From Siphonodentalium dalli (Eukaryota; Mollusca; Scaphopoda; Gadilida; Siphonodentaliidae), in NCBI GenBank assembly GCA_032622095.1, contig CP136061.1, positions 26,166,991-26,230,990 on the forward strand: DNA of 64,000 nucleotides. The letters run 5' to 3'. Shown here in pieces: positions 15,961 through 55,512 of the stretch (its first letter is position 1; the number at the start of each line of letters is the position of its first letter). The notes beneath the pieces are model-generated. The model was not told where the DNA came from. It was given only the letters and a program-made list of their open reading frames with translations, and did no database searches. Made by a program: the position numbers and the translations under genes.

Positions 15961-15976
15961 GGCCCTTTTCAGGGCC
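15961..15976 (+). terminator. Histone-type 3' stem-loop
   Basis: GGCCCTTTTCAGGGCC with the 5' flank AAAC and 3' flank ACTT. It is a 6-bp stem with a TTTC loop, as in invertebrate replication-dependent histone mRNAs. Eleven bases further is CACGAAAGATACG, similar to the histone downstream element that pairs with U7 snRNA. Confidence 0.88.
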
Positions 15977-16222
15977 ACTTAAAATTCACGAAAGATACGC
16001 TCTGTATTATGCTATATAATGAGCGTATTATAGATATGAATGGTGGTAGTGGGTTTTATTTTATTGTTAGGGAAGTATTCTTTGATAAATTATGTGAACA
16101 TTCTCTCCAAGTTCATGATGAATGAATTTGGTTTTGAAGAAATTATGTGAACATTATCTCCAGGAAGAATGAACAAATTGTTCAGTAGCAATTTCAGAGC
16201 GTATCTTTTTAAAAATTTGTGA
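15977..16222. other. Intergenic spacer between convergent accessory genes
   Basis: AT-rich. A direct duplication of TTATGTGAACATT(C/A)TCTCCA occurs at about 16089 and 16143. GAAAGATACGCTCTG near 15990 recurs as its complement near 16198, in each case downstream of a stem-loop. Confidence 0.5.
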
Positions 16223-16238
16223 GGCCCTGAAAAGGGCC
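16223..16238 (-). terminator. Histone-type 3' stem-loop
   Basis: On the minus strand it reads GGCCCTTTTCAGGGCC with the 5' flank AAAAC, beginning 13 nt after the stop of the gene at 16252-16680. Downstream on the same strand is AAAAAGATACGCTCTG, shared with the stem-loop at 15961. Confidence 0.88.
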
Positions 16239-16251
16239 GTTTTGGATGGTT

Positions 16252-16680
16252 TCAAAAGAAACCGCATAATGTGTTTGGGTTTGAATACAGCTGAAAGTTG
16301 TCTTGGGAACGTCGCAACCAAATGGCACAATTGCATGGCCGGCCTGTCTGTATCCCCCAGAGCGGTGCGAATTCGTACACCCGTTGCCCTGAGAAGATTA
16401 TGATAGACCGCTGTAGTGATGTAGCCGCAAGTCGTACCATCAATCTTGATGTCCCCAGCAATCTGGTATGTCGGAACCACCGTGGTGGCAGTCCAAACAC
16501 CCGATCTATGTTGTCCGTCATCAACATAACGGTGTACCTATAGATATCAAAACAGTTATCTATAGTCCCCGTTTCTGCTAAACCCAAAGCCTTCCATAGC
16601 ATCTGCGGTTCATCCCCAAACACACCTCGCACCAGCATCCCATCCTCCAAATAGCTCCGATATAGATCTCGGTAATCCAT
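16252..16680 (-). CDS. OTU-like pseudoenzyme, accessory (histone-stem-loop class)
   Basis: The 142-residue protein follows the OTU cysteine-protease pattern: a helix with LWKALGLAETGT (OTU: CLFRALSxxLYGT), a middle with FRHTRLLGTSRLMVRLAATSLQRSIIIF (OTU: E...LAxxLxRPIxVF), and a final strand with CNCAIWLRR. The position of the catalytic Cys reads Met (QMLWKAL) and no catalytic His is evident. If the fold is right, it has no deubiquitinase activity and may bind ubiquitin or act as a decoy. It is homologous to 29505-29942 and to 52438-52905. Divergent from the polymerase ORF, it has the shared promoter and stem-loop. The OTU assignment rests on pattern only. Confidence 0.75.
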   Translation of the reverse strand: MDYRDLYRSYLEDGMLVRGVFGDEPQMLWKALGLAETGTIDNCFDIYRYTVMLMTDNIDRVFGLPPRWFRHTRLLGTSRLMVRLAATSLQRSIIIFSGQRVYEFAPLWGIQTGRPCNCAIWLRRSQDNFQLYSNPNTLCGFF

Positions 16681-16686
16681 TTCGGT

Positions 16687-19600
16687 ATGAATGAAGAATG
16701 GGAATATCTGTTTTTATTGAAAACGCGCGGGCGCCGCCGACGACGTCTTCGCATATTTCACCAAATTTTCCCGAACGTCAAAACAAGTGTGTTTCTTTTT
16801 GTTCACGACACCAGTTGCGGGGTTGAGGAATACAAAATTATTCAGGAACAACTATATCCTGAGTATGTTATAAAAATACATAGTCAATTTGCTGACGAAG
16901 GCTTTCTGTTTCAACCACCACCAGTTGGGAAAGAAAGTAAAGTTGTACATCTATATTTCAATGACAACCACTACGATGTGATCACAACTGTCACGGGATT
17001 CCTTGGATGTCATTATTACTGTGAACACTGTGATGTCGGTTCGAACAACAGAGGTGATCATATATGTCCATACAAGTGTAAGTGTTTCGATGGTCAGATA
17101 TGTCCCTTTGAACGATGGATACAATGCATCAAATGTAAGAGGACTTTTAGAAGTAAACGATGTCTCGACAATCATTTGAAAAAATCACTAAAACATGACA
17201 AAACTATTTGTGATATGATACACAAATGCCAGAAATGTGGGGTTGAAATCGTCACACGAAAGGAGAAAAGACATATATGTTCGGGAACAAAGAAGTGCAA
17301 ATACTGTAAGGAAATCGTCGCATCAGATCACAGATGTCATATCCAGCAGTACCAACAGAGAGAAACACAGAAAGCAGTAAAGGTACCATTCATATTTTTT
17401 TATTTTGAATGTCAACAAGATACTGGTGTTCATATACCCAATTTTTGTGTTGCACAAACTGCTTGTGAAAATTGTATATGTAAACCCATTGATGAAATAT
17501 GCATTTCATGTGATTCTGTATTGTCAAACAGAGAATATATTTTTAAAGGAGAGAATGTATTGGAAAGATTTTGCAAATGGTTGTTTTACACCAACGATCA
17601 TAAAGGTAAAACATGTATTGCTCACAATGCAAGAGGTTACGATAGTCAGTTCCTCTTACATTACTTGGTGAACAATGGAAATTCAAAACCTAATGTTATT
17701 ATGAATGGCAACAAAATACTTAGTTTACAATGCAATGGTGTTAAAGTAATCGATTCATTGAGTTTCATCCCTATGGCATTATCTAAATTTCCAAAAACAT
17801 TCCAACTTGAAGAAATGGCTAAAGGTTATTTTCCACATTGGGCAAATACACAGGACTTTCAGAATTATGTAGGACCATATCTAGACAAAAAATACTATAA
17901 ACCTGAAATCATGTCTGAGGAAAATAGAGATTCATTTCTGAAATGGTACGAAGCTAGGGGTGAAGATATTTTTGATTTTCAAAAAGAAATTCAAAAGTAT
18001 TGTAAATCAGATGTAGACATTTTAAGACGTGGATGTGGGAAATTCAGACTATGTGTAATGGAAACTGATCAAATAGATCCATTTCGGGAAGCAATAACAT
18101 TAGCTCAAACCTGTAACCTTGCCTGGAGAAAAAATTCATTACCAGAGAATTCTCTAGGTATAATTTCAGACGCTGGATATCCACAAGCGCGTAAATTTTC
18201 AATGAAAGCAATTCGATGGCTACAGTACATTGCTACAAAACAAAATATAAACATAAAGCATGCTTTAAATGGTGGTGAAGTTAAAATAGGCACACATTTT
18301 GTTGATGGTTATCATGCAGAATCATACACAGTGTATAAAATGTATGGGTGTTTTTTTCATGGCTGTCCTACTTGCTATCCAGATAGAAATCGCCGAAACC
18401 CATACAGTAATATAACAATGCATGAATTGTATGAAAAAACAATAAAAACGGAAATTGAAATCAAAAGCTCGGGATGCAAATTAATATGCATCTGGGAACA
18501 TGACCTGGACAATAAATGTAAAGCAGACAAATATTTAAAACAAACTATGGATCAATTATATTTGCATCAAGACCCAGTTAAACCAAGGGAAGCATTATTT
18601 GGTGGCAGGACTAATGCTCTAAAATTATATCATGAAATAGAACCAACATCTAAACAGGAAATAAAATATATTGATATATGCAGTTTGTATCCTAGTGTAA
18701 ATAAATATAAGGAGTACCCACTTGGTCATCCTGAAATTCTAAGTCAGGAACAAATAGGAGACATCAAATCCTACAAAGGACTCATTAAATGCAAAGTATT
18801 ACCTCCAAATAAATTGTACATTCCAGTGCTACCGATCCACTGTAATAACAAAATGATATATACATTGTGTAAAACTTGTGCAGAAAATGAAAGTGGACAG
18901 TGTAATCATAAAACCGAACAGCGTGTTTTAGTTGGAGTTTGGACACATGTAGAATTATTCAAAGCAATAGAATTGGGTTACCAAATTCTGGAAGTGTATC
19001 AAGTTTGGCATTGGACTGAGTGGTCGGACAAAGTATACAGGGATTACATTGATAAATACCTCAAAATTAAACAAGAAGCAAGTGGATATCCAAATTCTGT
19101 TAAAAGTGAAGAAGATAAAGATAAATACATTAAAGATTATTATGAGGTTGAAGGTATAAAACTTGAAAAAGAAAAAATCAAAAACAAACCAGGACTCCGC
19201 CAGTGCGCAAAATTAATGATAAATTGCATATGGGGGAAAAATGCACAAAATAATATTCTTACTAAAACTGAATATATCTCAGAACAAACCAGATATTTTG
19301 AACTATTAACTGATAAAAATATCACCGTCAAAGCAGTTGAAAATTTTGAACAGGATAAATTCATATTATTCAGCTATGAAAATAAAACCGATATTATAGA
19401 ACCACAACCATCTGCCAATGTAGTTGTTGCATCATTTGTCACAGCATATGCACGCTTGGAGTTGTATCAAGTTTTAGAAAAACTCCAAGATAGGGTGTTG
19501 TATTTCGACACTGATAGCTGCATGTATATTTTCGATCCAGAAAAAGAAAATATTAAAACCGAAGACAGCTACCTTGGTAAATGGACTGATGAGCATCCAG

Positions 19601-19923
19601 ATGCTAAAATCATGAAATTTGTAGGGTTAGGACCGAAAAATTATGGATATCAGTACATGAAAGATGATGTCATAAAATCTGTATGCAAGGTCAAGGGCAT
19701 CACTCTGGATTATAAAACTAAACAGCAAATAAATTTTCATTCAATGGTTGAATGTGTTAACGACCGGTTAAATTTTCAACGTGTCATAAACTATCCATGC
19801 AGAATTAAACGCACAAAGAACCGAGAAGTAATTAGTGAAGAGCAAACAAAATCTTTCCGATCTGTGTACACCAAACGACTTGTTGTGGGTGAATACAACA
19901 CAATTCCTTATGGATGGAATTGA
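16687..19923 (+). CDS. polB: Protein-primed DNA polymerase B, N-terminally truncated
   Basis: The 1078-codon frame replicates the element by protein priming. Visible in order: Cys/His zinc-binding clusters (~residues 115-225); 3'-5' exonuclease motifs, Exo I as FFYFEC (Y239-E241), Exo II AHNARGYDSQF, Exo III YCKSDVD; then polymerase motif A DICSLYP (D663), motif B KLMINCIWG (K842) and motif C FDTDS (D941, D943). Polymerase motifs are intact. Exo I has Tyr where the homologue at 56410 has the metal-binding Asp, so proofreading is probably lost. The first ~38 codons are antisense promoter sequence; homology to the complete polymerase starts only at HDT (residue 40), so about 335 N-terminal residues are missing and the ATG is probably fortuitous. 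The stop overlaps the next ATG (TGATG). Confidence 0.95.
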   Translation: MNEEWEYLFLLKTRGRRRRRLRIFHQIFPNVKTSVFLFVHDTSCGVEEYKIIQEQLYPEYVIKIHSQFADEGFLFQPPPVGKESKVVHLYFNDNHYDVITTVTGFLGCHYYCEHCDVGSNNRGDHICPYKCKCFDGQICPFERWIQCIKCKRTFRSKRCLDNHLKKSLKHDKTICDMIHKCQKCGVEIVTRKEKRHICSGTKKCKYCKEIVASDHRCHIQQYQQRETQKAVKVPFIFFYFECQQDTGVHIPNFCVAQTACENCICKPIDEICISCDSVLSNREYIFKGENVLERFCKWLFYTNDHKGKTCIAHNARGYDSQFLLHYLVNNGNSKPNVIMNGNKILSLQCNGVKVIDSLSFIPMALSKFPKTFQLEEMAKGYFPHWANTQDFQNYVGPYLDKKYYKPEIMSEENRDSFLKWYEARGEDIFDFQKEIQKYCKSDVDILRRGCGKFRLCVMETDQIDPFREAITLAQTCNLAWRKNSLPENSLGIISDAGYPQARKFSMKAIRWLQYIATKQNINIKHALNGGEVKIGTHFVDGYHAESYTVYKMYGCFFHGCPTCYPDRNRRNPYSNITMHELYEKTIKTEIEIKSSGCKLICIWEHDLDNKCKADKYLKQTMDQLYLHQDPVKPREALFGGRTNALKLYHEIEPTSKQEIKYIDICSLYPSVNKYKEYPLGHPEILSQEQIGDIKSYKGLIKCKVLPPNKLYIPVLPIHCNNKMIYTLCKTCAENESGQCNHKTEQRVLVGVWTHVELFKAIELGYQILEVYQVWHWTEWSDKVYRDYIDKYLKIKQEASGYPNSVKSEEDKDKYIKDYYEVEGIKLEKEKIKNKPGLRQCAKLMINCIWGKNAQNNILTKTEYISEQTRYFELLTDKNITVKAVENFEQDKFILFSYENKTDIIEPQPSANVVVASFVTAYARLELYQVLEKLQDRVLYFDTDSCMYIFDPEKENIKTEDSYLGKWTDEHPDAKIMKFVGLGPKNYGYQYMKDDVIKSVCKVKGITLDYKTKQQINFHSMVECVNDRLNFQRVINYPCRIKRTKNREVISEEQTKSFRSVYTKRLVVGEYNTIPYGWN
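16722..16805 (-). promoter_or_regulatory. Accessory-class promoter for the 16680 gene
   Basis: On the minus strand: AAAAAGAAACACACTTGTTT, then TGACGTTCGGGAAAATTTGG, GACGTC and GCCCGCGCG. The block order matches the promoters at 15330 and 29375. On the plus strand this same sequence is read as the first ~38 codons of the polymerase ORF. Confidence 0.75.
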
Positions 19924-19982
19924 TGTGTTACCAGCAGAGATGCTTTTGAAAATTTATAATAATTTGATCGAAATGTCAAAAA

Positions 19983-21191
19983 ATGGATCAAGAAATCAAA
20001 CAAGAACTTAAGCAAGCTTGGTTTTTGAGGGAAAGTAGAATTATAATGGAGACTTTGCTGAACGGACATTTCTCTGAGGGACAGAGTCGACTGAGATGTT
20101 TGATTGAGAGATCAGAATTTGAAACTGATTTCTTAATGGATATATTGGATCAAATGTTTTCAGAATATTGGATATTTCATGGTGTTCCTAAAACCGAAAT
20201 AAACGCAATTCGTGAATTAGTTGGAAATAATTTTACTCGCTTTGCTGAATATCAAGACAGGATTATCAATGAAAAAACTTTGAAATTCGAAGAGGTGACG
20301 AGAATATATGGATACATTATTCTCCGAGAACCATGTACAATGTTCACTGTTGAAAAGTTATTTGAAGAAAAAGTGTCTTTGGATTATATTGTAAAAAACA
20401 CTAGACCTATTTCAGATTTAGATTATGAACTCGTATGGACATTTGGAATAGTATGGAGTTATGGTGATTCTTCATTAAAATTAAAAAGATTGATTCCGAA
20501 CAATCCTAATCAGTCTTACATGATCTGTCTCAGGGTAAAGATGGACGAATCATTGTTGTTCAAACATCCCTGTAACATTTTCATATCGGGACTAAGTGGT
20601 TGTGGTAAAACAGATTTTGTTAAGAAATTAATCGAATATAAAGATGACTTGTTCAAACCTGTTCCATACAAAGTCGTTTGGTGTTACAAAGAATGGCAAA
20701 ATACCTATAGTCAGATGCAAGAATTTCACAATATTCAATTTATAAATGGAATACCGGATGATGACAATGAACTTGTCGATGACACAGACTTACCGCACCT
20801 CATCGTTTTTGATGACATGCTAGGTGATAAAGATGAAGAAAAAATTATGTTGTGGTTTACAAGAAAAGGACATCACAGAAATACGTCTGTTATTTACATA
20901 ACCCAAAACATGTTTCAGAAATCTAAAGCGAGTAGAACTTTGAGTTTGAATACACATAACATGGTATTATTTCAAAGTGTGCGTGATAAAGGCCAAATAC
21001 AAATTCTTGCCTCTCAAATGCAAATACCTCATTTAATGCAGGCATATGATGATGCAACTTCAACCAATCGTGGTTATTTACTACTCGATTTTCACCCTAA
21101 AACGGATAAATCGTTGAGACTTAGAACTGATATTTTCCATCGGTGGCTCACAAATGACGATCGAGGTGCGGTAATATATTCATCGGTATAA
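19983..21191 (+). CDS. F-box-like protein fused to A32-type packaging ATPase
   Basis: This 402-codon frame combines what are two genes in Polinton-2 (60500 and 61130). Residues ~187-402 are the FtsK/HerA-type DNA-packaging ATPase: Walker A GLSGCGKT (203-210), Walker B LIVFDDM, then FTRKGHHRNTSVIYITQN. It would pump the genome into capsids. Residues 1-186 match the Polinton-2 upstream protein. Its first ~20 residues are encoded in another frame from an ATG at 19923 that overlaps the polymerase stop; a one-base shift in the A-run at ~19977-19983 separates them. That leader (LPAEMLLKIYNNL) resembles an F-box helix. The fusion and the frameshift are both decay features relative to Polinton-2, though the ATPase part is intact. 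Confidence 0.93.
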   Translation: MDQEIKQELKQAWFLRESRIIMETLLNGHFSEGQSRLRCLIERSEFETDFLMDILDQMFSEYWIFHGVPKTEINAIRELVGNNFTRFAEYQDRIINEKTLKFEEVTRIYGYIILREPCTMFTVEKLFEEKVSLDYIVKNTRPISDLDYELVWTFGIVWSYGDSSLKLKRLIPNNPNQSYMICLRVKMDESLLFKHPCNIFISGLSGCGKTDFVKKLIEYKDDLFKPVPYKVVWCYKEWQNTYSQMQEFHNIQFINGIPDDDNELVDDTDLPHLIVFDDMLGDKDEEKIMLWFTRKGHHRNTSVIYITQNMFQKSKASRTLSLNTHNMVLFQSVRDKGQIQILASQMQIPHLMQAYDDATSTNRGYLLLDFHPKTDKSLRLRTDIFHRWLTNDDRGAVIYSSV

Positions 21192-21227
21192 AGATATGTG
21201 TATCAACATAATATTTCATTTCCAATC

Positions 21228-23207
21228 ATGGAGTCGCATGAAGCAGTCTTGAGTGTATTTTCGACTATCGCTAAATTAATACTTGATGATCACTTAAATT
21301 AAATCACTGCATGAAAAGCGAGATTTATAAAATATAAATGTCGCATAAATTTAGGACCCTAAATTTATGCATGCATTTATGCATATTAAATTCGTCTTTA
21401 TACAAAAATATAAATGTCGCATTTATATTTTTAAATATCGCATAAATGTCGCATTATTTTCGCTCATTACTGTAACCAACAGTGGTTTTAAGTCTTGGCC
21501 CATAATTTAATTACTACCATGTGGATATGTGAGACATATCGTATAACAGAAGCTAACTGCCGATACCGATTTCTTTGTCTGCCAACACAACTGCTGCGAA
21601 GACGTGCGTGAATTAGGTGGGTACTCTTAATTATAAGGCGAGTTTATATACAAATACGTTTGTTTTCTGGTTTCGCATTTTCTGTCTAAACTAGAAGGCA
21701 TATTTGCAATGGTAGATTAACGCTGTGGACTGTAATGTAGCCATGCACACAGTAGGGACCAAGGTGGTAGGATGGGGTGTTCGTGTGTGGGTGGGTGGGA
21801 GGGGTATTGGTGGTGGTATATTTGCTTGGGTTAGAACATGATCGCCACATCATTTCATTTTTAAATTCCCTTTCAATTCGCAGCGTGATCGACACATGTC
21901 AAAATTAATATTTGATTATACAGAGACGTCGGAATAAGGTTATTCTATCTCGTGAAAATGTGGTTTTGTGAGAGTGATTCCACCCTTAGCCAGATCACAA
22001 ATAAAAAATGCCGTACATTACAATTCTTATTTTAGTTTTAATATGTTATCGTTTATACTTATTTCCCATGCGATCATTTAATTATTTAATTTTTATTCTT
22101 TATTGCAGAGACTACGAAAATTGATGACGGCAAGTGCCATGTCGAAGTAGTTCATATTATATTTGTGACTGGTATAACCAACAATAGGGCAGCATTTTGT
22201 TGGCAAATTACTACATGCACATGGAGATACCAGAATCAGGGCGACACATGTGTATATGTATAGTTAGATATACACATCCGTGTCGCCTTATATGCTGGTT
22301 ACAAGCCAAATGTCACCATAAAGTAGATTTCACAAATATATATGGATATATATGTTCAAATCCAAATAATTTATACGGGGTATAAATGTGCATAAACTGG
22401 AGTTTATAACCAGAATAAATGTAGCTATATGTATATTTATGCAGCTTTATTCAGTGAATAAATTTGCATTTATGCATAAACAGGTCGATAATAAATGTGC
22501 ATAAACGTACGAATAAATGCCGAGTTTATTCTGTTGAATAAACGTGGGTTTATTCAGTGAATAAATTGTGTATAAATGTCGGCCTTTATTCATGAATAAA
22601 TTGTGAATAAATGTGCATAAATTTCCGGATTTATGCACATTTATTCAGTGAATAAATTTTTGATTTATCCAGATTTATGCACATTTATCCGGAATTTATG
22701 CAATGAATAAATTCCAGTTTTCATGCAGTGAAAGCTTCCAAAGCAGACACGAACATTCCTACAAAAACACAAAAAAGAGCTGAAGAAAATAGCTGACAGT
22801 AGAACTCATATCGATTCAAAAAAGAAAATACTTTCAAAAACTGGTGGAGGTGGTTTTCTCGGTGGAGTTTTGATCAGAAGTCTTCTCAGACAAAAATAAA
22901 ATAAATCAATTGCACGAGTTAGATCAAATAGAGTAAATGCTACTCGAGTAAATTCTACGATTGCACAGCGAGCTAGTCCAGTCAGAGTAAATTCTACAAG
23001 TGCACAGCGAACTACTCCAGCTAGAGTAAATTCTACTGGATTAAATTCTACATTTGCTAGAATTCAACCACTCAACGATAATGGTCTGCAACCAATTCCA
23101 TCAATTCAAGAAGCAGAACATTACCCGTTGGTTCAACGATACTCAAAAATGATGAATCTTTGATGGCATTTGATCGTAATTTTAATAAACGTAAAAGTAA
23201 AAAGTAA
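21228..23207 (+). pseudogene. Small basic virion protein (PX-like), broken by insertion
   Basis: This is the orthologue of the intact gene at 61815-62402. The first part (21228 to ~21300, starting MESHEAVLSVF) is interrupted by a 1.4-kb element (21305-22730). Reading resumes with KLPKQTRTF and contains the glycine-rich hydrophobic segment GGGGFLGGVLIRSLL, followed by a premature TAA at 22897-22899. The following ~300 bp still resemble the Ser/Thr/Arg-rich C-terminus (ARVNST-type repeats), with a further frame change near 23130 and a stop at 23205-23207. The 'QRGG-FL' hydrophobic tail is typical of Polinton small virion proteins likened to adenovirus pX/VI; the role is inferred. Confidence 0.85.
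21305..22730. mobile_element. Inverted-repeat insertion inside Polinton-1
   Basis: It is bounded by CACTGCATGAAAA and TTTTCATGCAGTG. It splits a gene that is continuous in Polinton-2, which proves that it is an insertion. Both ends are rich in GCATAAAT/ATTTATGC motifs; the right 300 bp is an array of palindromic AATAAATGTGCATAAA-type units. The interior has no transposase. CACTG ends recall CACTA-type elements, but I cannot define a matching target duplication. Confidence 0.8.
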
Positions 23208-23243
23208 TTCAGTCATTTGACATTCAACTATTGAAGAGTAAAT

Positions 23244-23585
23244 ATGGCGAAAAAAACTCCACTGATTAAAAAATATGGTAGTTTTGTAATGGCTATGAAT
23301 CAGGCACCAACTCATTTTCGGAAAAAAATGATAAAAGATGCCCCAAAGAGAGTGATTGATTGCATGTCAGAATGCTGTAAAAATATTTTAAAAGGCAATG
23401 TAAAACTAACAGAAGCTCAGAAGCGCAAACTTCGTCCGAGGTGTAGACATCTCAGAGAACTTGCAAGTAAATCAACATCTTTGAAACGAAAAAAACAAAT
23501 TTTAAACCAGAAAGGAGGTTTTTTACCACTTCTTATGCTAGCACCGTTGCTTGGTAAAGCACTCGCTGGAATAATTCGCGGTTAA
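23244..23585 (+). CDS. Small basic virion protein with hydrophobic Gly-rich tail
   Basis: The 113-residue protein is very basic, with a helical Lys-rich body containing APKRVIDCMSECCKNILKGN and LTEAQKRKLRPR. It ends KGGFLPLLMLAPLLGKALAG, a GGFL-type amphipathic or membrane-active tail. The orthologue at 62459-62821 aligns over the full length without gaps of note. Such proteins are found next to capsid genes in Polintons and adintoviruses and are compared with adenovirus minor core/lytic proteins (pX, VI); that comparison is by context and tail motif, not by alignment. Confidence 0.85.
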   Translation: MAKKTPLIKKYGSFVMAMNQAPTHFRKKMIKDAPKRVIDCMSECCKNILKGNVKLTEAQKRKLRPRCRHLRELASKSTSLKRKKQILNQKGGFLPLLMLAPLLGKALAGIIRG

Positions 23586-23596
23586 ACTTGAAGAAA

Positions 23597-24328
23597 ATGG
23601 TCGCTGTTCCCTTCAAAATGTTGGATGACATTAAAAAATGGAGAATGAGTCTAACTAATCCGAAATTACCACCTAATCCTGAAATTACGAATAAATCAAA
23701 ACTAAGCAGAGAATTGAATTCAGTTTCTGATCAAAATTTGTCAGAATATGAGAAGGTTCAATTATATGGTACAACTTTACACAAAGTGAAAACTTCTCAA
23801 AAATCAGTTAGAGCTATTTCAGCCCCGAAAACAGAACCACCATTTAATCATCATCATAGGGATGTGATAGAAAGTATTCCGTTAAAGATGAGAAAAAAAG
23901 CTGAACAACTTTTACAACTGATTTCAAAACATCCACAAATGAAGATTGATGAACATGGACAATTAAAATATGGTGACAAAGTTATTAGAGGATCAAATAT
24001 TGTTGATCTCCTCAATGATATTGTACGACAAAGAAAAGGTTCCGAACCAACAGGTTGGCAAACCTTTTCACAAGGATTGAGCGAGCTTAATGTACCTCAA
24101 GATTTTGTAGGGAATAGAAACCGCTGGCTATGGATTAAAAAACATTTGAAAGATGATTCAGATGATGATTTTGAAACTCCGGTACAACGCATAACACCAA
24201 AACGATTTGATTCTCAACGATTCACACCAATGAAAGGTATAAAAGCAATACATTCAAAAACTAAAATAGCAGATAGGTTGACACCAAAGGGTATTAAAAC
24301 AGAAAAAACACAATGGGATCCATACTAG
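23597..24328 (+). CDS. Conserved Polinton protein of unknown function (VPFKML family)
   Basis: About 243 residues, orthologous to 62842-63549. It starts MVAVPFKML; the Polinton-2 copy has an ATG three codons further up, which here reads TTG (23588), so the start has probably shifted. Features: helical N-terminus with YEKVQLYGTTLHK, the segment IPLKMRKKAEQLLQLI, then GQLKYGDKVIRGSNIVDLLN and the conserved NVPQDFVGNRNRWLWIKK, followed by a basic Pro/Thr-rich tail with TPKRF and TPKG motifs. The family recurs between the small virion proteins and integrase in animal Polintons. No function is known to me. It ends directly against the integrase ATG (TAGATGAG). Confidence 0.85.
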   Translation: MVAVPFKMLDDIKKWRMSLTNPKLPPNPEITNKSKLSRELNSVSDQNLSEYEKVQLYGTTLHKVKTSQKSVRAISAPKTEPPFNHHHRDVIESIPLKMRKKAEQLLQLISKHPQMKIDEHGQLKYGDKVIRGSNIVDLLNDIVRQRKGSEPTGWQTFSQGLSELNVPQDFVGNRNRWLWIKKHLKDDSDDDFETPVQRITPKRFDSQRFTPMKGIKAIHSKTKIADRLTPKGIKTEKTQWDPY

Positions 24329-25384
24329 ATGAGCAGTTATCTAAACAAATTATATAATCCGAAGAAAGTTGGAAGTTATGGCGGTGTAATGAAGCTTTTT
24401 GATGAAGCGAAAAAGCAAAATAAAAAAATTAAACTCATAGATGTGAAGAAATGGTTGCAAGGTCAGTCGACATATACTTTACACAAACCAATAATTCGAA
24501 AATTCCAACGTAGAAAGACTATTGTGGCTGGGATTGATATTCAATGGCAGGCAGATTTAGCTGATCTTCAGAATTTGAAAAAACATAATGATAATTACAG
24601 ATATCTGTGTGTGTGATAGACGTTTTTTCAAAATTTGCGTGGGTAGTGCCAATCCACGATAAATCTGGACAAACTTTGATCGAATCATTCAGGAAAATTT
24701 TGAAATCTTCAAAACGTAAACCAAAATCGTTTCAAGCTGATAAAGGTTCTGAATTCAAAAATGAAAAGTTTTTGAAATTTCTGCGATCAGAAAACATTCA
24801 TTTCTTCACAACTGAGAATCCAGAGACTAAAGCAAGTATTTTCGAACGATTTCAAAGAACTTTAAAAACTCGTATGTGGAAGTATTTCACACACAATAAA
24901 ACTTCAAGATATATTGATGTTTTACAGCCCCTAGTCGATTCTTACAACAATAGTTATCACCGCAGCATAAAATCGAAACCGTCGGCAGTTACTTTGAAAA
25001 CTGAAGCTGAAATTTCCAAAAATCTATATGGAACAGGGAATAAAAAAGGAAAATCTACACTGAAAGTGGCTGACTTGGTTCGTATCAACAAAACCAAAAG
25101 AACATTTGAAAAGGGTTATTTACCAAACTGGACTCGTGAAATTTTCAAAGTTGATAAATCCAGTAACATACAAAGTTTCTGATCTTGATGGTGAAGAGAT
25201 TGCTGGATCATTCTACAAACATGAAATCCAGCATATAAAAGACAGTAAGGTGTATGAAATAGAATCAGTTATTGATAAAAGAACGAGAAGAGTGGGTGGT
25301 AAAACAGTAAAAGAAATTAAAGTTCATTGGCTTGGATATCCAAAAAAGTTTGACAGTTGGATCCCAGCTTCAAATTTAGTATAA
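24329..25384 (+). pseudogene. int: Retrovirus-type integrase with C-terminal chromo-like domain, frameshifted
   Basis: It would catalyse insertion of the element. The N-terminal part (24329-24616) holds the first catalytic Asp in WQADLADL (residue ~76). The rve core continues in another frame (from ~24610), with the second Asp in FQADKGSEF and the Glu in IFERFQRTLK. A second frame change near 25155-25165 leads to a chromo-like domain (VYEIESVIDKR...IKVHWLGYPKKFDSWIP). The first lesion is in a TG run at 24608-24617, where the intact Polinton-2 gene is one base longer. All three acidic residues survive, but no single frame covers the protein, so it is dead as it stands. Confidence 0.95.
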
Positions 25385-25397
25385 AACAGAATTTACC

Positions 25398-26501
25398 ATG
25401 TTGGAAAATCATTCAGATTCAATTAATCTCGATGAACCGTCACAATTTAAGTTCTGTGGTGAAAAAGTTGCTAAGAACCAAGTCACCTACTTCACGCAGA
25501 TAATTATTATTTATATCATAATAATTACATCTATTGTACACATTAGTATCCAGAGCGCAAACAAAGAATTGTGGCTTATTCTTCTAAGTAGTTCTCTAGG
25601 TTATATTCTACCAACACCTGGACTGAAATTATTGAAAAATACTGAGCAAAAAATGAATTCATTCTACATAACTCTCATGAGTGATAGTTCAATGTCACTT
25701 TACCCAGCCAACTCACAATGTTGTTTCACAGTGAAATTACCAAAAACCATACATATTGATAAAGAGCTTTGGGAAGTTGCAATGGATGAACTAATTGTAC
25801 CATCAGAAACATACAACATTATTGGAGATGCCTGCAAAATAAAAATAAAAACTTCTGTTCCAAGAATTTTACAATATTTGAATAAGATACCAATGAGTGA
25901 TGTAGTAATTTCAAAACCAGAAAATGGTATAGAATTAAAAATACCAGAAGGAGCATATTCTGGTGGAGCACTTTTGACAGATACAATTCAAGGTGTAATT
26001 GATAGTACAGTAAGCAGAATGATTCCAGAACTGGAATTCGAAATCGGATATTCCAAAGCACAACAACGAGTTAAAATTTCAACCAATAGTTATACCAAAG
26101 TAGGTCTTGTACTCCCCAAAGCTCTTTTGGATAAACTTGGTTACATAACAGAATCGAACACTGTCACATTTGCTACTCCTTCGATAACATTTCAATATGG
26201 AGTTGATTTATGTGCGGAGCATAATCAATTGTTTGTTTATTCTGACATTGCTGATTATACAATTCTTAGTGATGTTGAAGCACCGATATTACGAGTGACA
26301 TCATTCGAGAGTAAAAGAATACATGATGGTAAACATATTAGGCATGAATTCAAAAACTTACATTATGTACCAATATCAACGTCTAGCTTTGATACCATAA
26401 ATGTATATATAACTGGTGATACTGGCAAACCAATTCAGTTTATTGGTGGAAAGTCTATGGTAAAGTTGCAATTCCGACGCCGAAGTAATTTGTATTTATG
26501 A
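25398..26501 (+). CDS. Small membrane protein joined in frame to penton-like minor capsid protein
   Basis: This 367-codon frame appears to contain two proteins. Residues 1-85 form a short protein with two hydrophobic segments (FTQIIIIYIIIITSIVHI, ~33-50, and LWLILLSSSLGYIL, ~58-71). From Met86 (25653) follows MNSFYITLMSDSSMSLYPAN, the typical start of the Polinton single-jelly-roll minor capsid (penton-like) protein, which occupies capsid vertices. In other Polintons these are separate genes as far as I know, so the missing stop may be a lesion, or the capsid protein may start at 25653. The frame overlaps the next gene by 4 bases (ATGA). The penton call is by family pattern and position. Confidence 0.8.
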   Translation: MLENHSDSINLDEPSQFKFCGEKVAKNQVTYFTQIIIIYIIIITSIVHISIQSANKELWLILLSSSLGYILPTPGLKLLKNTEQKMNSFYITLMSDSSMSLYPANSQCCFTVKLPKTIHIDKELWEVAMDELIVPSETYNIIGDACKIKIKTSVPRILQYLNKIPMSDVVISKPENGIELKIPEGAYSGGALLTDTIQGVIDSTVSRMIPELEFEIGYSKAQQRVKISTNSYTKVGLVLPKALLDKLGYITESNTVTFATPSITFQYGVDLCAEHNQLFVYSDIADYTILSDVEAPILRVTSFESKRIHDGKHIRHEFKNLHYVPISTSSFDTINVYITGDTGKPIQFIGGKSMVKLQFRRRSNLYL

Positions 26502-26878
26502 TGATTCCCGTGTATAGAGGCGTATCTAGACAGTATGGAAATGGAATTGGTTCACTATTCAAATCTGCAATGAGAACAGTAATACCGTTTCTAAAACCTA
26601 TTGGTCAGATTGCTAAACAACAAGTATTCAAGCATGGACTTGCTGCAGTCGAAGATATCATTCATCGTGGTAAAAGTCCAAAAGACGTATTTTTGAAACA
26701 AGGTAAAGAAGCATTGAAATCTTTTGGAAGGGAAACAATAAAGAAAATATCAACACCAAATGGCATCATTAGATCATCGCGACCTTTGAAAAATCATTCT
26801 TCTCGTAAACGAGTTAGAAGTAAGTCCATTAAAACGCCTGTAAAGAAATCAAAACGATCTCTCGATATATTTGATTAA
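26498..26878 (+). CDS. Basic core-like virion protein
   Basis: A 126-residue, strongly basic protein starting MMIPVYRGVSRQYGNGIGSL. The N-terminal Tyr-Arg-Gly and GxGIGxLF elements and the amphipathic segment AMRTVIPFLKPIGQIAK are typical of a small protein placed before the major capsid gene in Polintons. The C-terminus has clusters SRKRVRSKS and VKKSKRS that could bind DNA or act as nuclear signals. It lies between the penton-like gene (ATGA overlap) and the major capsid gene (2-bp gap). The role, core/condensing or membrane lysis, is inferred. Confidence 0.8.
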   Translation: MMIPVYRGVSRQYGNGIGSLFKSAMRTVIPFLKPIGQIAKQQVFKHGLAAVEDIIHRGKSPKDVFLKQGKEALKSFGRETIKKISTPNGIIRSSRPLKNHSSRKRVRSKSIKTPVKKSKRSLDIFD

Positions 26879-26880
26879 TC

Positions 26881-28148
26881 ATGATGATGCAAAATGGATC
26901 ATGCGAATGCAGCAAGTCCGAGTTAGATGCTTCTGATGTTCCACCAACAATGACAACGATGTTGGAATCACAATGGATAGAACATCACCCGATTAGCTCT
27001 TTGAATAATTCCGCACCGATAGAATTTGTAATTCCGCCTCAAACTGAAAAATGGATAGATGTAAATCAATCATATTTGTACCTGAAATTCAAAATCACAA
27101 AAGCAGATGGAACAAACTTGGTTGATGGTACTGATGAAATTGCGCCTATTAACAACTTTTTCCATAGCATGTTCAATAGTATCGATATTTACCTAAATAA
27201 CAAACTTGTAACGGCAAACGGAGATACCTATCCTTATCGAGCCTACATGGAAAATCTCTTGGCTTATTCTGGTGAATGTAAAGAAAATCAACTTGCCGCA
27301 CTAGAAATGTGGTACCCCGACACCGCTAAGCAGTTCACCGAAAACACTAAAGCTGGTGGTAATGATGGATTGAAATCTCGCCAGGCAATCATAGCAGGTA
27401 GTAAAACGGTAGAATTGTGTGGTCGTTTACACACAGATATATTTCTACAAGAGAAATACTTACCAAATGGAATTGAGATAAGAATTCGTCTCAATAGAGC
27501 GAATCCAAAATTCTCTTTAATTGGTCAGGCCAACGGAAAAATAGTATTTGAAACGGCAGTTTTCAATGTTCGTACAATTACGCTGATGTCAGTAGTAGCA
27601 AATAACTTGAACCAAACAATAATACAGAAAAATATGAAAATACCGATTAGAAGAGTTGAAGTAAAAACATTCACTATTGGTGCAGGGCTTAGATCAAAAA
27701 TTGAAGATCACCTTTTTCAAGGACAATTGCCAAAGAGACTTTTCATAGGCTTGGTATCAAACAAAGATATGAATGGCGATATTGAAACGAACCCATTTCA
27801 TTTCCAACACTTCAATCTGAGAAAACTTGAAGTTAGTCAGGACGGACATACCATCCATAACCGACCATTTGAACCAAACTTTGAATCAGAACAATGCCTA
27901 AGATCTTATTTATCACTGTATCAGTCTTCGGGTATGTTTGGACAAAACAAATCCTTTGGTTTGAATCTCGAAAAATACATGACCAAGGAGCAGAGGAAGG
28001 ACATTTGCATCCTATAAAAACCGGTAACATACGGTTAGAGCTTCAGTTTGCTGCAGCTCTAGCTTCAGTGATCAACGTGATAGTCTATGCTGAGTTCGAT
28101 AATCAAGTTGAAATCAACAGTTTGCGAGAAATAATAACAGATTATTAA
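26881..28148 (+). pseudogene. mcp: Major capsid protein (double jelly-roll), frameshifted near the end
   Basis: The main frame (26881-28017, 378 codons) has the order and motifs of Polinton/adintovirus major capsid proteins: PIEFVIPPQTEKWIDVNQSY near the start, then NNFFHSMFNSIDIYLNNKLV, PYRAYMENLL and GRLHTDIFLQEKYLPNG. These proteins form trimeric capsomers of icosahedral particles. The conserved C-terminus (IRLELQFAAAL...VIVYAEFDNQVEI...TDY) is in a second frame ending at 28148, so a frameshift lies at about 27990-28015. Without the terminal strand the second jelly roll would be incomplete. Recognition of the family is secure; loss of function is inferred from the lesion. Confidence 0.9.
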
Positions 28149-28152
28149 AAAC

Positions 28153-28608
28153 ATGGATGGATTGCACTTGGAGGAAAAATTGAGACTGGAAGTTGGAGGA
28201 CTCGATTTCATTCCATATGTTTCTATCCTTGACAAAGTTCGGAAAACTTTCGAGAAATGTTTCGTTCATGAAATACAAAATCAAATTTCAAAAGAAGTGA
28301 CACTCAATTGTGAAGGATGTAAAATAGATCATCCAAGCCAGAAACGACATTTACTTTGTCTTTGGACACCACCTATACAATGGGTAGATATGTTCATTGA
28401 TATAGCACTACTTAAATTGAACATCTACCGAGTTATGGAACAATGGTATCCAGAAATAGAATCATTTACACCACAAGAGAAATTTGAGGCATTCAAACTT
28501 TGGAAAGATATAAAGGAAGTTGTTCATGCAAACTGTATCCAATTTAATTCGGTTTTTGTTGACTTGTGGTGTGAAAAAGTAAAAAAAAACTACGAAGATG
28601 AACACTAG
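28153..28608 (+). CDS. Conserved Polinton protein of unknown function, zinc-site candidate
   Basis: A 151-residue protein with CEGCKIDHPSQKRHLLC (residues ~56-72). This is a CxxC...H...H...C arrangement able to bind a metal. It is followed by a helical, Trp-rich C-terminus (WVDMFIDIALLKLNIYRVME). It sits between major capsid and protease and overlaps the protease ATG by 11 bp. Similar 'C-GC..HPSQ..H.C' proteins occur at this position in other animal Polintons, to my recollection. I cannot assign a function. The frame is intact. Confidence 0.8.
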   Translation: MDGLHLEEKLRLEVGGLDFIPYVSILDKVRKTFEKCFVHEIQNQISKEVTLNCEGCKIDHPSQKRHLLCLWTPPIQWVDMFIDIALLKLNIYRVMEQWYPEIESFTPQEKFEAFKLWKDIKEVVHANCIQFNSVFVDLWCEKVKKNYEDEH

Positions 28609-29128
28609 CGAACTTCAGCATATACTAGACAAATCATCCTACCTCTGTTCATTGTATGGTGTGGTGTGTGCATAAGATCAGTTACCACACGAGAAACCTC
28701 ATCATGTAAAAGCATACATAGTAAATACACATACGTCAGAAAAGCCAGGAGAACACTGGGTTGCAATATTCTTCAATGGGAACATTGCAACATATTTCGA
28801 TTCGTTTGGGATACCAGTTATTGATAAATATATCAAATGATTTATTCAAAGAAATTCGATCGAATGTAAAATAAACGTTGGGCGGTTTCAACATCACGGT
28901 ACAAACGTGTGTGGTATCTACTGCATATTTGCTTTACATTTCTTGAAAAGCGGATACGGTATAAAAGTATTAGTTGAAATGAATTTTGATGGTGACTACT
29001 TCAAAAATGATAGAAAAGTATTTGATTGGTTTCATAGAAACTATGAGCCCTTACGAAAAGAATCAGAAACATTACCCAAAACATGTATTTCACAAACTTG
29101 TAAGACTTACTGTGAATTTCAGTGTTGA
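28598..29128 (+). pseudogene. pro: Adenovirus-type cysteine protease (maturation protease), two internal stops
   Basis: One reading frame runs the whole length but contains a TAA at 28673-28675 and a TGA at about 28838-28840. Catalytic elements are all visible in that frame: His in GEHWVAIFF, Asp in YFDSFG, and Cys in TNVCGIYC. The family processes capsid precursors during virion maturation. With two stops the product cannot be made. The second stop is a TGA where neighbours suggest an Arg codon, consistent with C-to-T decay. The C-terminal open part (from 28907) has no separate function. A polyadenylation signal AATAAA follows at 29308-29313. Confidence 0.92.
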
Positions 29129-29307
29129 TAAAATGTGTTCATTACCAATTGTTTAAACATGTTAAAATCATAATCATTTTGTAAATATGTTGATTGTTAA
29201 TGATGAAATTAGTTACCAAATGTAAATTATGTTCATTGCATTACCAATTATTGATTGTAAATATGATAATTTCATGATCAGTTGTAATATTTTATTCTTA
29301 ATTCAAA

Positions 29308-29313
29308 AATAAA
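29308..29313 (+). terminator. Polyadenylation signal AATAAA
   Basis: It lies 180 bp after the protease stop in an AT-rich spacer (29129-29374). It marks the end of the rightward virion gene block, which unlike the accessory genes has no histone-type stem-loop. Confidence 0.6.
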
Positions 29314-29374
29314 AGTTATGTTATTGAAAAACAGTGTCTGTTTTTAATGATCGTCTTCGGCAATGTCGATGAAG

Positions 29375-29468
29375 ATCTTAATTCACCAAAAAGAAACACA
29401 TTTGAAATGACGTTCGGGAAATTTGGTAGAAAAAACGTCGCCAATGACGTCCGCGCGTTTTACATATA
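29375..29468 (+). promoter_or_regulatory. Accessory-class promoter for the 29505 gene
   Basis: It contains CACCAAAAAGAAACACATTT, TGACGTTCGGGAAATTTGG, GTCGCCAATGACGTC and CGCGCG in the same order as the copies at 15330 and 16722 (minus). CGGGAAA is E2F-like and TGACGTC is CRE-like. Confidence 0.75.
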
Positions 29469-29504
29469 ACAAAACCCCATTTAGAGTATATCATTCTCTC
29501 CACG

Positions 29505-52402: not shown

Positions 52403-52418
52403 GGCCCTGAAAAGGGCC
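52403..52418 (-). terminator. Histone-type 3' stem-loop
   Basis: On the minus strand GGCCCTTTTCAGGGCC with the 5' flank AAAAC and 3' flank ACCAAA. The stem starts 19 nt after the stop of the gene at 52438. Downstream on the same strand is CGAAAAGAAAAACTC, a purine-rich candidate U7-binding element. Confidence 0.9.
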
Positions 52419-52437: not shown

Positions 52438-52905
52438 TTAGAATCCGCCACATTGAACTTCTTTGTTCGCCAAAACTTCAATTGATTTGTCTCCTCGCCT
52501 CATCCATATTTCGCATTCACAATAATGCTCGTGGCAAACGTGTGGGATCCACACTAGAGTTATTGATGACTTGAATCTTGGTGTTGATTTGTAGCCGCCT
52601 TTGGTAGCATCAAACATGACGATAGGTCGCTGTATAACAGTCGCCGCTAATTCAACCATCAATCTTGATTCAGCCAAAAGTGGTGTGCGCCGTAAATCTT
52701 GTGCCGACGCACCAAGTTCGTCACTCTCTGCGTAGTACAGGTCAACTGCCGCATCTCTCAGAACCATCCATCCATCGGTCGTCCCGTAAACCGCAACGCT
52801 GAGTGCCCTCCAAAACAGAGATATTTCTTCGCCGCCGCACACTGCTTTACAGTATACCCCCTGTACCATTATCTCGTCAAGATCTGTTATGTTTACAGCA
52901 GTCAT
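52438..52905 (-). CDS. OTU-like pseudoenzyme, accessory (histone-stem-loop class)
   Basis: The 155-residue protein is homologous to 16252-16680 and 29505-29942. OTU-type pattern: SLFWRALSVAVYGTTDGWMV, LRDAAVDLYYAES, LLAESRLMVELAATVIQRPI followed by VMF, and a C-terminal strand HYCECEIWMRR. The catalytic Cys position (…SLFWRAL) has no Cys, although an HY pair exists near the end, which may be a relic of the catalytic His. Divergent from 53529 across a bidirectional promoter. The start is supported by the leader CATTCAAAGATG, also found at the other minus-strand accessory gene (54512). The fold is inferred from pattern. Confidence 0.8.
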   Translation of the reverse strand: MTAVNITDLDEIMVQGVYCKAVCGGEEISLFWRALSVAVYGTTDGWMVLRDAAVDLYYAESDELGASAQDLRRTPLLAESRLMVELAATVIQRPIVMFDATKGGYKSTPRFKSSITLVWIPHVCHEHYCECEIWMRRGDKSIEVLANKEVQCGGF

Positions 52906-52934: not shown

Positions 52935-53500
52935 GTCTTGAACATATATTACGATTGTGCGGGCGGTAGAGAAAGCACATAATACTTTGACGTTAAAAAT
53001 GACAAATGCTTCCTGACGTTGTGTTTCTTTACAGTGCATTATCTGTAGTTTTCACTATTTCGATATGTTATAGATTAAATTCATGATAGTATATGCAATT
53101 AATTAAGATGTTTTAACATATGAATTCATCTTCGTTCATAAACGATGACCAAGTAAAGTTATCGATTGTAATGATGAAGAAAAATGTTCAGTATGTTTTC
53201 TTGTGTTCAGTTTTATGTATAAAATATGTACATCTCCAAAAACAAAACTAGAAAAACATTCCATATTTTCCTAACGAGGTAACAAATATATCAATCATGT
53301 GTACCAAATAATAGATAATGATCTAACGAAATAAAAAACATTTGTTTGATCGCTATGCAATAATGATCAAGAAAAATATGAATGCTGATCCGTCTCTGAA
53401 AAAACACAATGCCAGGAAACATTTGTCAATTTTAACGTCAATGCGACATGTGATTTCATTGACGCCCGTGTCAAATGTATAAAAATATTTTCGAATTTGA
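52935..53500. promoter_or_regulatory. Bidirectional accessory promoter, copy 1
   Basis: Two ~70-bp core promoters face outward. Each contains CGGGCGGTAGAGAAA-type, TTTGACGTTAAAA and ACGTTGTGTTTCTTT blocks, or their complements. The right-hand core also has TGTATAAAAATATTTTC, a TATA box. About 380 bp of AT-rich sequence separates the cores. Nearly the same ~550-bp segment recurs at 54552-55105. It drives the minus gene at 52905 and the plus gene at 53529 (inference from position). Confidence 0.78.
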
Positions 53501-53528: not shown

Positions 53529-54017
53529 ATGGATCCGTTAACAGAATTTCTTCAGAGTGAGATATACAGTAATCCTGTTGTACAGAATACATATGCGGCA
53601 CCACAGTCAACAGGCCAAGCTAATACGACAATGACTATAGGTGGAGATACACTCATTTTAAAAGCGATTTTAGATGAACTGAGATGTCTTCGCAGGGATA
53701 TTGACGTGAAAACACAAGTAACGCATCAAGAAGTAAAAGTGAATCTTCGTTTCGTTGCAGAAGAGATAGATATACCAATCAGGGTTCATGATGTTCAGAA
53801 ATCGAAAGAACAGAAACAGATCAAAAAAGAAAAAATATTGGCTGCGAAAGAAAAAGAACCTAAAAGTATCATGAAGCCTTCTACTGAGACAAAAGTCAGA
53901 TTTCGTCTTCCTTGTAAAGAATCTAAAGATACAGAGAAAAGTGATGAATTCGCAAAAGCTATTGGTTCTCATGGGAAAGATATGTCAAGATATAAGAAAA
54001 ACACAAAACGATGTTAA
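53529..54017 (+). CDS. Accessory protein of MDP(V/L)TEF family (histone-stem-loop class)
   Basis: The 162-residue protein starts MDPLTEFLQ. A leucine-rich helix (LILKAILDELRCLRRDI) is followed by a region with EEIDIPIRVHDVQKSK, then a highly charged Lys/Glu tail and IGSHGKDMSRYKK. The N-terminus, helix position, DIPI.VH..QK and G(S)xGKD near the end are shared with 15492-15941. I chose the ATG at 53529 rather than an in-frame one at 53475 because the latter overlaps the TATA box and because this start matches the homologue. Function unknown; the helix suggests oligomerisation. Confidence 0.85.
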   Translation: MDPLTEFLQSEIYSNPVVQNTYAAPQSTGQANTTMTIGGDTLILKAILDELRCLRRDIDVKTQVTHQEVKVNLRFVAEEIDIPIRVHDVQKSKEQKQIKKEKILAAKEKEPKSIMKPSTETKVRFRLPCKESKDTEKSDEFAKAIGSHGKDMSRYKKNTKRC

Positions 54018-54039: not shown

Positions 54040-54055
54040 GGCCCTTTTCAGGGCC
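54040..54055 (+). terminator. Histone-type 3' stem-loop
   Basis: GGCCCTTTTCAGGGCC with the 5' flank AAAAC and 3' flank ACACA, 22 nt after the stop. CCCAAAAGGTTACTC follows and is shared with the stem-loop at 55497. Confidence 0.9.
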
Positions 54056-54266: not shown

Positions 54267-54282
54267 GGTCCTGAAAAGGACC
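54267..54282 (-). terminator. Second histone-type stem-loop with compensatory change
   Basis: On the minus strand GGTCCTTTTCAGGACC. One stem pair is changed on both sides (C-G to T-A), so the hairpin is preserved. It lies just after the consensus copy at 54295 and is followed by TCAAAAAGAAAAACT. Confidence 0.85.
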
Positions 54283-54294: not shown

Positions 54295-54310
54295 GGCCCT
54301 GAAAAGGGCC
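54295..54310 (-). terminator. Histone-type 3' stem-loop
   Basis: On the minus strand GGCCCTTTTCAGGGCC, starting 13 nt after the stop of the 54324-54512 gene. Confidence 0.9.
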
Positions 54311-54323: not shown

Positions 54324-54512
54324 TCAAAGTTCACGCCACGATTTTCTTTTGAGACTTTTGCTTTTGTTCCAACGCTGTTGTTTTTTGCATATTTGCATAA
54401 CCAGTTTTGCACTGGCGGTTACTTCTTTTGCGTGTTCGCCCCGCATTATCTGGGGTGTTAGCCCTATCGTTCCTCTTAGTATAGACATCAACGGTTCGGG
54501 GGTTTCGGACAT
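54324..54512 (-). CDS. 62-residue basic accessory protein (histone-stem-loop class)
   Basis: This short protein has a Pro/Glu N-terminus, a central segment RGEHAKEVTASAKLVMQI and a basic C-terminus (NKSKSLKRKSWREL). The central piece faintly resembles the C-terminal helix of histone H2B (GELAKHAVSEGTKAVTKY) in the GExAK start and Lys/Val spacing; with so few residues this may be chance. The gene is believable because it has the class promoter, the leader CATTCAAAGATG identical to that of the 52905 gene, and two histone-type stem-loops. It has no counterpart in Polinton-1. Overlapping longer frames start upstream of that leader and are less likely. Confidence 0.65.
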   Translation of the reverse strand: MSETPEPLMSILRGTIGLTPQIMRGEHAKEVTASAKLVMQICKKQQRWNKSKSLKRKSWREL

Positions 54513-54551
54513 CTTTGAATGCAGAATAAAAATTGTTCACGGCCGTGTTTG

Positions 54552-55105
54552 AACATATATTACGATTGCGCGGGCGGTAGAGAAAGCACATAATACTTTG
54601 ACGTTAAAATGACAAATGCTCCCTGACGTTGTGTTTCTTTTCAGTGCATTATCTGTTAGTTTCACCATTTCGATATGATATAGATTAAATTCATGATAGT
54701 ATATGCAATTAATTAAGATATTTTAACATATGAATTCATCTTCGTTCATAAACGATGACCAAGTAAAGTTATCGATTGTAATGATGAAGAAAAATGTTCA
54801 GTATGTTTTCTTGTGTTCAGTTTTATGTATAAAATATGTACATCTCCAAAAACAAAACTAGAAAAACATTCCATATTTTCCTAACGAGGTAACAAATATA
54901 TCAATCATGTGTACCAAATAATAGATAATGATCTAACGAAATAAAAAACATTTGTTTGATCGCTATGCAATAATGATCAAGAAAAATATGAATGCTGATC
55001 CGTCTCTGAAAAAACACAACGCCAGGAAACATTTGTCAATTTTAACGTCAAAGTATTATGTGATTTCTCTACCGCCCGTGTCAAATGTATAAAAATATTT
55101 TCACT
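54552..55105. promoter_or_regulatory. Bidirectional accessory promoter, copy 2
   Basis: Near-identical duplicate of 52935-53500, with the two outward cores matching each other better here: CGGGCGGTAGAGAAAGCACA on one side and the complement of CGGGCGGTAGAGAAATCACA on the other. TATAAAAATATTTTC lies before the plus gene at 55128. It serves the minus gene at 54512 and the plus gene at 55128. Confidence 0.78.
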
Positions 55106-55127
55106 TTTTCAGTGAACTTCATTCATT

Positions 55128-55478
55128 ATGCCGTCTCTAAAGAAATTTTTCAAGAAGCTATGGAGGAAGAGAGATTCGTCAGAGGAGACGAAAATCAGAA
55201 CCTATAGGAAATGGCAGGATTCTCCTGAACAAAAGGTGGTGCAGAAACAGATGTTAACAGATTTTCTGGCTCGGCGACGACCATCGGCTGAAGTATGTGA
55301 TCAAGAACCAAGCAATCTTGATCTCGTGGAGATCTTGTCACAGATCTCGAAGAAAGATCTGTGCAATGCAGCAATTGACAGCTTCGCTCAGGCTGCTGCG
55401 GCGCACAGATCAAACCCTACTTGGTCTGTGACAATTAATCCCAACGGGATATATCCTGATTTGGCAGAATTTTTATGA
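55128..55478 (+). CDS. 116-residue accessory protein (histone-stem-loop class), unknown function
   Basis: The N-terminus MPSLKKFFKKLWRKR is a basic amphipathic stretch, possibly a membrane or nucleic-acid contact. A middle with PEQKVVQKQMLTDFLARRRP and a helical C-terminal domain (LDLVEILSQISKKDLCNAAI, DSFAQAAAAHR) follow, ending WSVTINPNGIYPDLAEFL. I do not recognise a family and find no counterpart in Polinton-1. The class promoter lies directly upstream and a stem-loop begins 18 nt after the stop. The frame is intact and codon use looks like its neighbours. Confidence 0.8.
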   Translation: MPSLKKFFKKLWRKRDSSEETKIRTYRKWQDSPEQKVVQKQMLTDFLARRRPSAEVCDQEPSNLDLVEILSQISKKDLCNAAIDSFAQAAAAHRSNPTWSVTINPNGIYPDLAEFL

Positions 55479-55496
55479 ATTCTGGAAAAGAAAAAC

Positions 55497-55512
55497 GGCC
55501 CTTTTCAGGGCC
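55497..55512 (+). terminator. Histone-type 3' stem-loop
   Basis: GGCCCTTTTCAGGGCC with the 5' flank AAAAAC and 3' flank ACCCACA, the full consensus. Downstream CCCCAAAAAGGTTACTC matches the element after 54040. Confidence 0.9.

Follow-up and report, generated by a model that had tools for sequence, protein, structure and literature searches.

How does a mobile element end the messages of its genes inside an animal cell? The question is raised by a 64,000-nucleotide stretch of the genome of the scaphopod Siphonodentalium dalli (assembly GCA_032622095.1, contig CP136061.1, positions 26,166,991 to 26,230,990), here called the window, which contains two Polinton elements. Element A is bounded on both sides within it, and element B extends beyond the right edge of the window. 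An initial annotation proposed that seven genes in these elements, which we call A1 to A3 and B1 to B4, end in the stem-loop of replication-dependent histone mRNAs and undergo histone-type 3' processing. Our analysis suggests that the histone machinery of the host, consisting of the stem-loop binding protein (SLBP) and the U7 small nuclear ribonucleoprotein (snRNP), probably ends the mRNAs of this small gene set in each element.

To count the hairpins, the window was searched with the pattern GGCCCTTTTCAGGGCC, allowing up to 3 mismatches. Exactly eight sites were found, compared with a mean of 0.15 and a maximum of 2 in shuffled sequence. A general pattern for animal histone stem-loops, GGYYYTTHTHARRRCC, returned the same eight sites and no further match in the window. 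These are the hairpins that had been predicted. All eight lie on the sense strand relative to seven open reading frames (ORFs), and each of these has a hairpin beginning 13–22 nt past its stop codon (A1 19, A2 13, A3 13, B1 19, B2 22, B3 13 and B4 18 nt). In gene B3 (54324-54512) a further copy follows 41 nt past the stop. Only 0.8% of window positions fall 13–22 nt past an ORF of at least 60 amino acids that begins with ATG. The 16-mer is identical in 7/8 hairpins. The copy at 54267 alone differs, and here the compensatory change described in the annotation was found: a C-G pair is replaced by T-A, both sides being altered and the stem preserved. On folding, each of the eight hairpins forms a stem of 6 bp capped by a loop of 4 nt, with energies of −9.3 to −13.7 kcal/mol and z-scores of −2.5 to −4.6. 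The flanks are less uniform than had been claimed. AAAAC precedes 7/8 hairpins and TAAAC precedes the one at 15961, and the AC(C)CA said to follow most hairpins was found as strict ACCCA after just two of them (29956 and 55497).

The whole window was scanned with the Rfam covariance models, among them the histone 3' stem-loop model RF00032 (Histone3), whose gathering score is 34 bits. RF00032 was the sole family above its gathering threshold in the 64 kb, and all five matches lie on these hairpins (34.6 to 42.6 bits, E 3e-06 to 3e-09; see the table). The predicted likeness to the histone signal thus passes the threshold for 5/8 hairpins; the remaining 3/8 lie under it (22.2 to 33.8 bits) and were recovered in relaxed scans, which also gave many chance matches, most of them from microRNA families hitting the terminal palindromes. 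The RF00032 stem-loop consensus, GGYYYT-THTH-ARRRCC, fits all eight hairpins and nothing else in the window. The hairpin 16-mer is included in the list of stem-loops that a published study used to find such structures in human histone transcripts (PMC7807067). Judged by the covariance model, by identity with a listed human stem-loop and by position, the signal is at sequence level a genuine histone-type 3' stem-loop. The hairpin genes share with replication-dependent histone mRNAs (RF00032; SLBP, U7 snRNP) the 16-nt stem-loop, its spacing from the stop and an uninterrupted ORF, and the purine run behind the stem-loop is also present at 6/7 final hairpins, as described below. In a published figure of Hydractinia histone genes, 6–17 nt between stop and stem-loop are described as left out. 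Unlike histone mRNAs, the hairpin genes sit in mobile elements, none of the seven encodes a histone by Pfam, and 3/7 have AATAAA nearby.

To determine whether the hairpin is restricted to one gene set, 17 other gene ends in both elements were examined. None of them has a hairpin within 450 nt. The annotation had stated that replication and capsid genes lack the hairpin; the absence holds at all 17 ends, and the name capsid rests on resemblance. The regions upstream of the seven hairpin genes were also aligned. They share one arrangement: first AARAAACACA, then an ACGTC-like and a CG-rich word, and finally an AT-rich stretch ahead of the ATG. The window has 8 copies of AARAAACACA vs 1.41 expected, and the maximum in 100 shuffles was 6. 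7/8 copies lie 114–148 nt upstream of hairpin-gene ATGs if the B2 start is taken as 53529 (76 nt in B2 if the earlier ATG at 53475 is used). The word is found within 200 nt upstream of 7/7 hairpin genes vs 1/17 others. ACGTTCGG occurs 3 times, always upstream of element A hairpin genes, and TTAACGTCAA occurs 4 times, always upstream of element B hairpin genes. The promoter word common to the seven hairpin genes is a new result of this analysis. Because the hairpin genes also have a common promoter module, the set is marked at both its 5' and 3' ends. This strengthens the supported conclusion that the hairpin is limited to one gene class.

The products of the hairpin genes have diverged to 26–36% identity (A1-B2 31%, B1-A2 36%, B1-A3 26%) and the PolB proteins of the two elements to 62%. 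Because the hairpin was kept meanwhile, it has proved more durable than much of the coding sequence. This bears on the possibility that the copies arose by duplication of one ancestral gene cassette of promoter and hairpin inside the elements, the hairpin now being functionless. Duplication is evident, as the B1/B3 and B2/B4 flanks are 85–98% alike and the 3' regions of A1/A2 and A2/A3 are 76–78% alike. Since several copies derive from one another by duplication, the eight hairpins are not eight independent events, and the recent duplications in element B limit the promoter evidence as well. Element A is also old or damaged, its PolB lacking about 320 first residues that are present in that of element B and stops occurring in all three forward frames past 28608. 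Nevertheless, the hairpin is the same in 7/8 copies and has a stem-keeping change in the eighth, while the surroundings and coding regions have diverged widely. Passive spread of a functionless hairpin is very unlikely in our view.

The annotation had also claimed purine-rich elements at about the distance of the histone downstream element that pairs with U7. This was examined for the seven final hairpins, the proximal B3 hairpin being left out as its 3' flank runs into the distal copy. A run of at least 6 purines starting +12 to +14 from the stem, and lying within +12 to +24, was found behind 6/7 final hairpins. The background for this is 8.5% across the window and 10.1% inside the elements. 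The downstream flanks probably share an element with a consensus near AAAAGATACTCTTT, and the score observed in a shared-word test with all seven sequences was reached in 1/300 shuffles. A histone-type purine-rich downstream element is likely to be present, but not securely so, for a reason given below. These results also bear on a virus-specific palindromic 3'-end signal that acts independently of SLBP and U7. In some large DNA viruses, hairpins at the 3' end signal termination or polyadenylation, as at the hairpin-linked poly(A) sites of mimivirus. A generic palindrome would need neither a T-rich loop nor flanks, whereas here stem, loop and spacing all fit the histone model together, with the purine run at the U7 distance in 6/7. 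A signal of the viral kind is most improbable.

Several observations weigh against the reading that host histone machinery ends a defined gene set. The purine run of at least 6 is absent behind the hairpin at 29956 (A3), and none lies directly behind the one at 54295, so that the claim of purine-rich elements stands for six final hairpins and fails at these two sites. The downstream element is insecure because the shared-word test becomes weak once near-duplicates are dropped (15/300 shuffles with five sequences, 17/300 with four). The promoter words were picked after inspection of the sequence, and of the 12 promoter pairs between A and B only 5 scored above 95% of shuffles. Finally, 3/7 hairpin genes have AATAAA on their sense strand within 450 nt (A2 +187/+192, B1 +12, B3 +194), and in B1 it starts 12 nt past the stop, immediately ahead of the hairpin. 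With these three genes, the separation between hairpin and poly(A) signal is not clean. The annotation had assigned AATAAA to at least two gene blocks. Behind the zinc-knuckle gene (55624-56199) it indeed follows at 32 nt, and behind the last open stretch before 29129 at 179 nt, but the split is unclean given the copies near A2, B1 and B3. Of the proposed histone-type 3' processing, then, the signal, its position and its restriction to a gene class stand, and clean exclusivity does not.

The AATAAA copies suggest a different arrangement, in which dividing cells use the hairpin and the nearby poly(A) signal serves otherwise, so that the genes would not be strictly linked to replication. Dual 3' processing has published precedents in human H2A.X and H2AC18 (PMC7807067, PMC9756948). 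Like B1, A2 and B3 these genes have a histone stem-loop plus a poly(A) signal; unlike the hairpin genes here they are cellular histone genes. Set against dual ends are the 4/7 hairpin genes that have neither AATAAA nor ATTAAA within 450 nt, and the hexamer itself, which is common in AT-rich DNA and is also present at several internal gene ends. We consider dual 3' ends the main rival to histone-type processing, though an unlikely one.

Under histone-type processing, SLBP would sit on the hairpin and U7 snRNP would pair with the purine-rich element behind it. Cleavage of the transcript would fall between these sites and yield a short mRNA that lacks poly(A). Such mRNAs would be made and translated mainly during DNA replication, in S phase. 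As the common promoter module would start the same genes, the set would be defined at both ends, and the hairpin genes may act as early-type genes that are expressed in step with host replication. In element A the set lies near both ends, the location of the early E1 and E4 genes in adenovirus genomes. The hairpin genes resemble these in being small, fast-evolving genes near both ends of a related linear genome. They differ in that no E1 or E4 homology was found for them in Pfam, and adenovirus early mRNAs are polyadenylated. Whether the hairpin genes form a replication-gated terminal set of early type, started by a common promoter, finished by the host histone 3' machinery and yielding proteins only while host DNA replicates, we regard as an even question.

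Table 1. Hairpin genes, their promoter words and hairpins, and features of the two elements (positions in the window; purine runs counted from the stem; bits are RF00032 scores)
Feature	Position	Strand	Remarks
Left target-site duplication CATGCG	14728..14733	+	6 bp
Element A, Polinton	14734..30546	.	15,813 bp; terminal inverted repeats starting 5'-AG, PolB, A32-type ATPase, chromodomain
A1 promoter word	15344..15353	+	148 nt before ATG
A1 hairpin gene	15492..15941	+	149 aa, B2 homologue
A1 hairpin	15961..15976	+	33.8 bits (below gathering), purine run +14 to +19
A2 hairpin	16223..16238	-	30.9 bits (below gathering), purine run +13 to +19
A2 hairpin gene	16252..16680	-	142 aa, relative of B1 and A3
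A2 promoter word	16788..16797	-	117 nt before ATG
A3 promoter word	29391..29400	+	114 nt before ATG
A3 hairpin gene	29505..29942	+	145 aa; end ~600 bp from element A right end
A3 hairpin	29956..29971	+	34.6 bits, without purine run of at least 6
Right target-site duplication CATGCG	30547..30552	+	6 bp
B1 hairpin	52403..52418	-	41.8 bits, purine run +12 to +22
B1 hairpin gene	52438..52905	-	155 aa
B1 promoter word	53020..53029	-	124 nt before ATG
B2 promoter word	53399..53408	+	130 nt before ATG at 53529
B2 hairpin gene	53529..54017	+	162 aa from ATG matching A1 start; 180 aa from ATG 53475
B2 hairpin	54040..54055	+	40.1 bits, purine run +14 to +19
B3 distal hairpin	54267..54282	-	two-sided pair change; 37.1 bits, purine run +14 to +24
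B3 proximal hairpin	54295..54310	-	22.2 bits (below gathering), without purine run directly behind
B3 hairpin gene	54324..54512	-	62 aa; alternative: overlapping 86-aa ORF 54331-54591
B3 promoter word	54630..54639	-	127 nt before ATG
B4 promoter word	55009..55018	+	119 nt before ATG
B4 hairpin gene	55128..55478	+	116 aa
B4 hairpin	55497..55512	+	42.6 bits, purine run +14 to +20
Element B PolB	56410..60483	+	62% identical to shorter element A PolB

The products of the hairpin genes were compared with several libraries. None of the seven ORFs had a Pfam match above cut-off, six that were searched against PHROGs had no match, and a sequence search of the PDB with an alignment of A2, A3 and B1 returned no match. 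A structure model of the A2/A3/B1 family, with a mean pLDDT of 45.5, was not taken into a fold search, and the idea of an inactive OTU-like fold for this family was dropped. The products were also scanned for short cell-cycle motifs, with a single LxCxE-like sequence found, LPCKE in B2, to which no weight was given as such motifs are short. A short motif may be shared by three products: A1 and B2 start with MDPxTEFL and B4 ends in PDLAEFL (genes at 15492, 53529 and 55128-55478). Among the element B hairpin genes a 300-nt stretch is repeated with 97% identity (52996-53295 and 54606-54905).

The elements themselves were characterized with the same libraries. The terminal inverted repeats of element A align over 490 nt with 403 identical, 59 mismatched and 56 gap columns. 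DNA_pol_B_2, for the protein-primed type B DNA polymerase (PolB), was matched in both elements (162.8 bits in A, 134.4 bits in B), as was Pox_A32, for the A32-type packaging ATPase (27.4 bits in A and 35.1 bits in B; cut-off 22.8), and the two ATPases are 71% identical. Chromo was matched in element A (33.8 bits; cut-off 25.1). The integrase region there is in pieces, and two pieces upstream of the chromodomain gave no integrase match in Pfam, while the corresponding part of element B lies beyond the window. The integrase of adintoviruses is described as carrying a C-terminal chromodomain. Library searches named only PolB, the A32-type ATPase, the chromodomain and weak zinc-knuckle matches. 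For the candidate double jelly-roll capsid protein (26881-28017), Pfam gave nothing above cut-off, PHROGs gave no match and the PDB none that was convincing, and the names capsid, pX and protease for other genes are our assumption from family resemblance, which no library search confirmed. With Polintons and adintoviruses the elements share terminal inverted repeats starting with AG and a 6-bp target duplication (both in element A), PolB, the A32-type ATPase and the chromodomain. They differ from them in the histone-type 3' ends, which go unmentioned in the excerpts of the literature consulted. The hairpin genes lie near both ends of element A and are grouped to the left of PolB in element B.

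Several repeats lie in and around the elements. A 189-nt inverted repeat at 56096-56513 gives the zinc-knuckle gene (− strand) and the element B PolB (+ strand) the same promoter and first ~32 codons. To the left of element B, a tandem and inverted array of the 30-nt unit GGGGGGCACTATGGCCCAGTACCCCCCAGT (51864-52262) is possibly its terminal repeat. Nested palindromes GATGCCACTCTGGCCCATGGGCCAGAGTGGCATC lie within the terminal repeats of element A (14734-15000 and 30289-30546), and palindromic units GCCAATGCATTCTCTTATATATGCGAG recur beyond the elements at either side of the window (13118-13374 and 51161-51535).

Relatives were sought in a collection of viral contigs (viral_contigs) and one of prokaryote genomes (genome_contigs). 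In viral_contigs neither the exact hairpin nor a second general hairpin pattern had a match, the element B PolB had none that was confirmed, and a PolB segment and the capsid candidate had none. Scans of genome_contigs yielded no relative. The general hairpin pattern gave one candidate in viral_contigs (L001, 24.8 bits), in what we take to be a bacterial virus; its hairpin lies between two ORFs on the opposite strand and was rejected as a chance match. Alignments of PolB and of the ATPase gave one distant match (L002, 28%) and one short match (L003), respectively. RF00032 had no match in L002 at E up to 0.1, and no family matched L003; both are too distant to count either way. That virus and prokaryote collections yielded no close relative is unsurprising for animal elements and does not bear on the spread of the hairpin. 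Literature searches returned no paper pairing Polinton with histone stem-loop or Maverick with stem-loop binding protein, and no report of histone-type mRNA ends in Polintons was among the matches listed.

Replication-dependent histone genes are known to be almost the only users of the SLBP/U7 pathway. If the proposed processing is correct, a virus-like mobile element would have taken over this pathway for genes that are not histones, and the hairpin genes would provide non-histone substrates of SLBP and U7. It would form a direct molecular link between a Polinton and the cell cycle of its host. The mRNAs of the hairpin genes would escape poly(A)-selected RNA sequencing, and the timing of Polinton expression would become testable.

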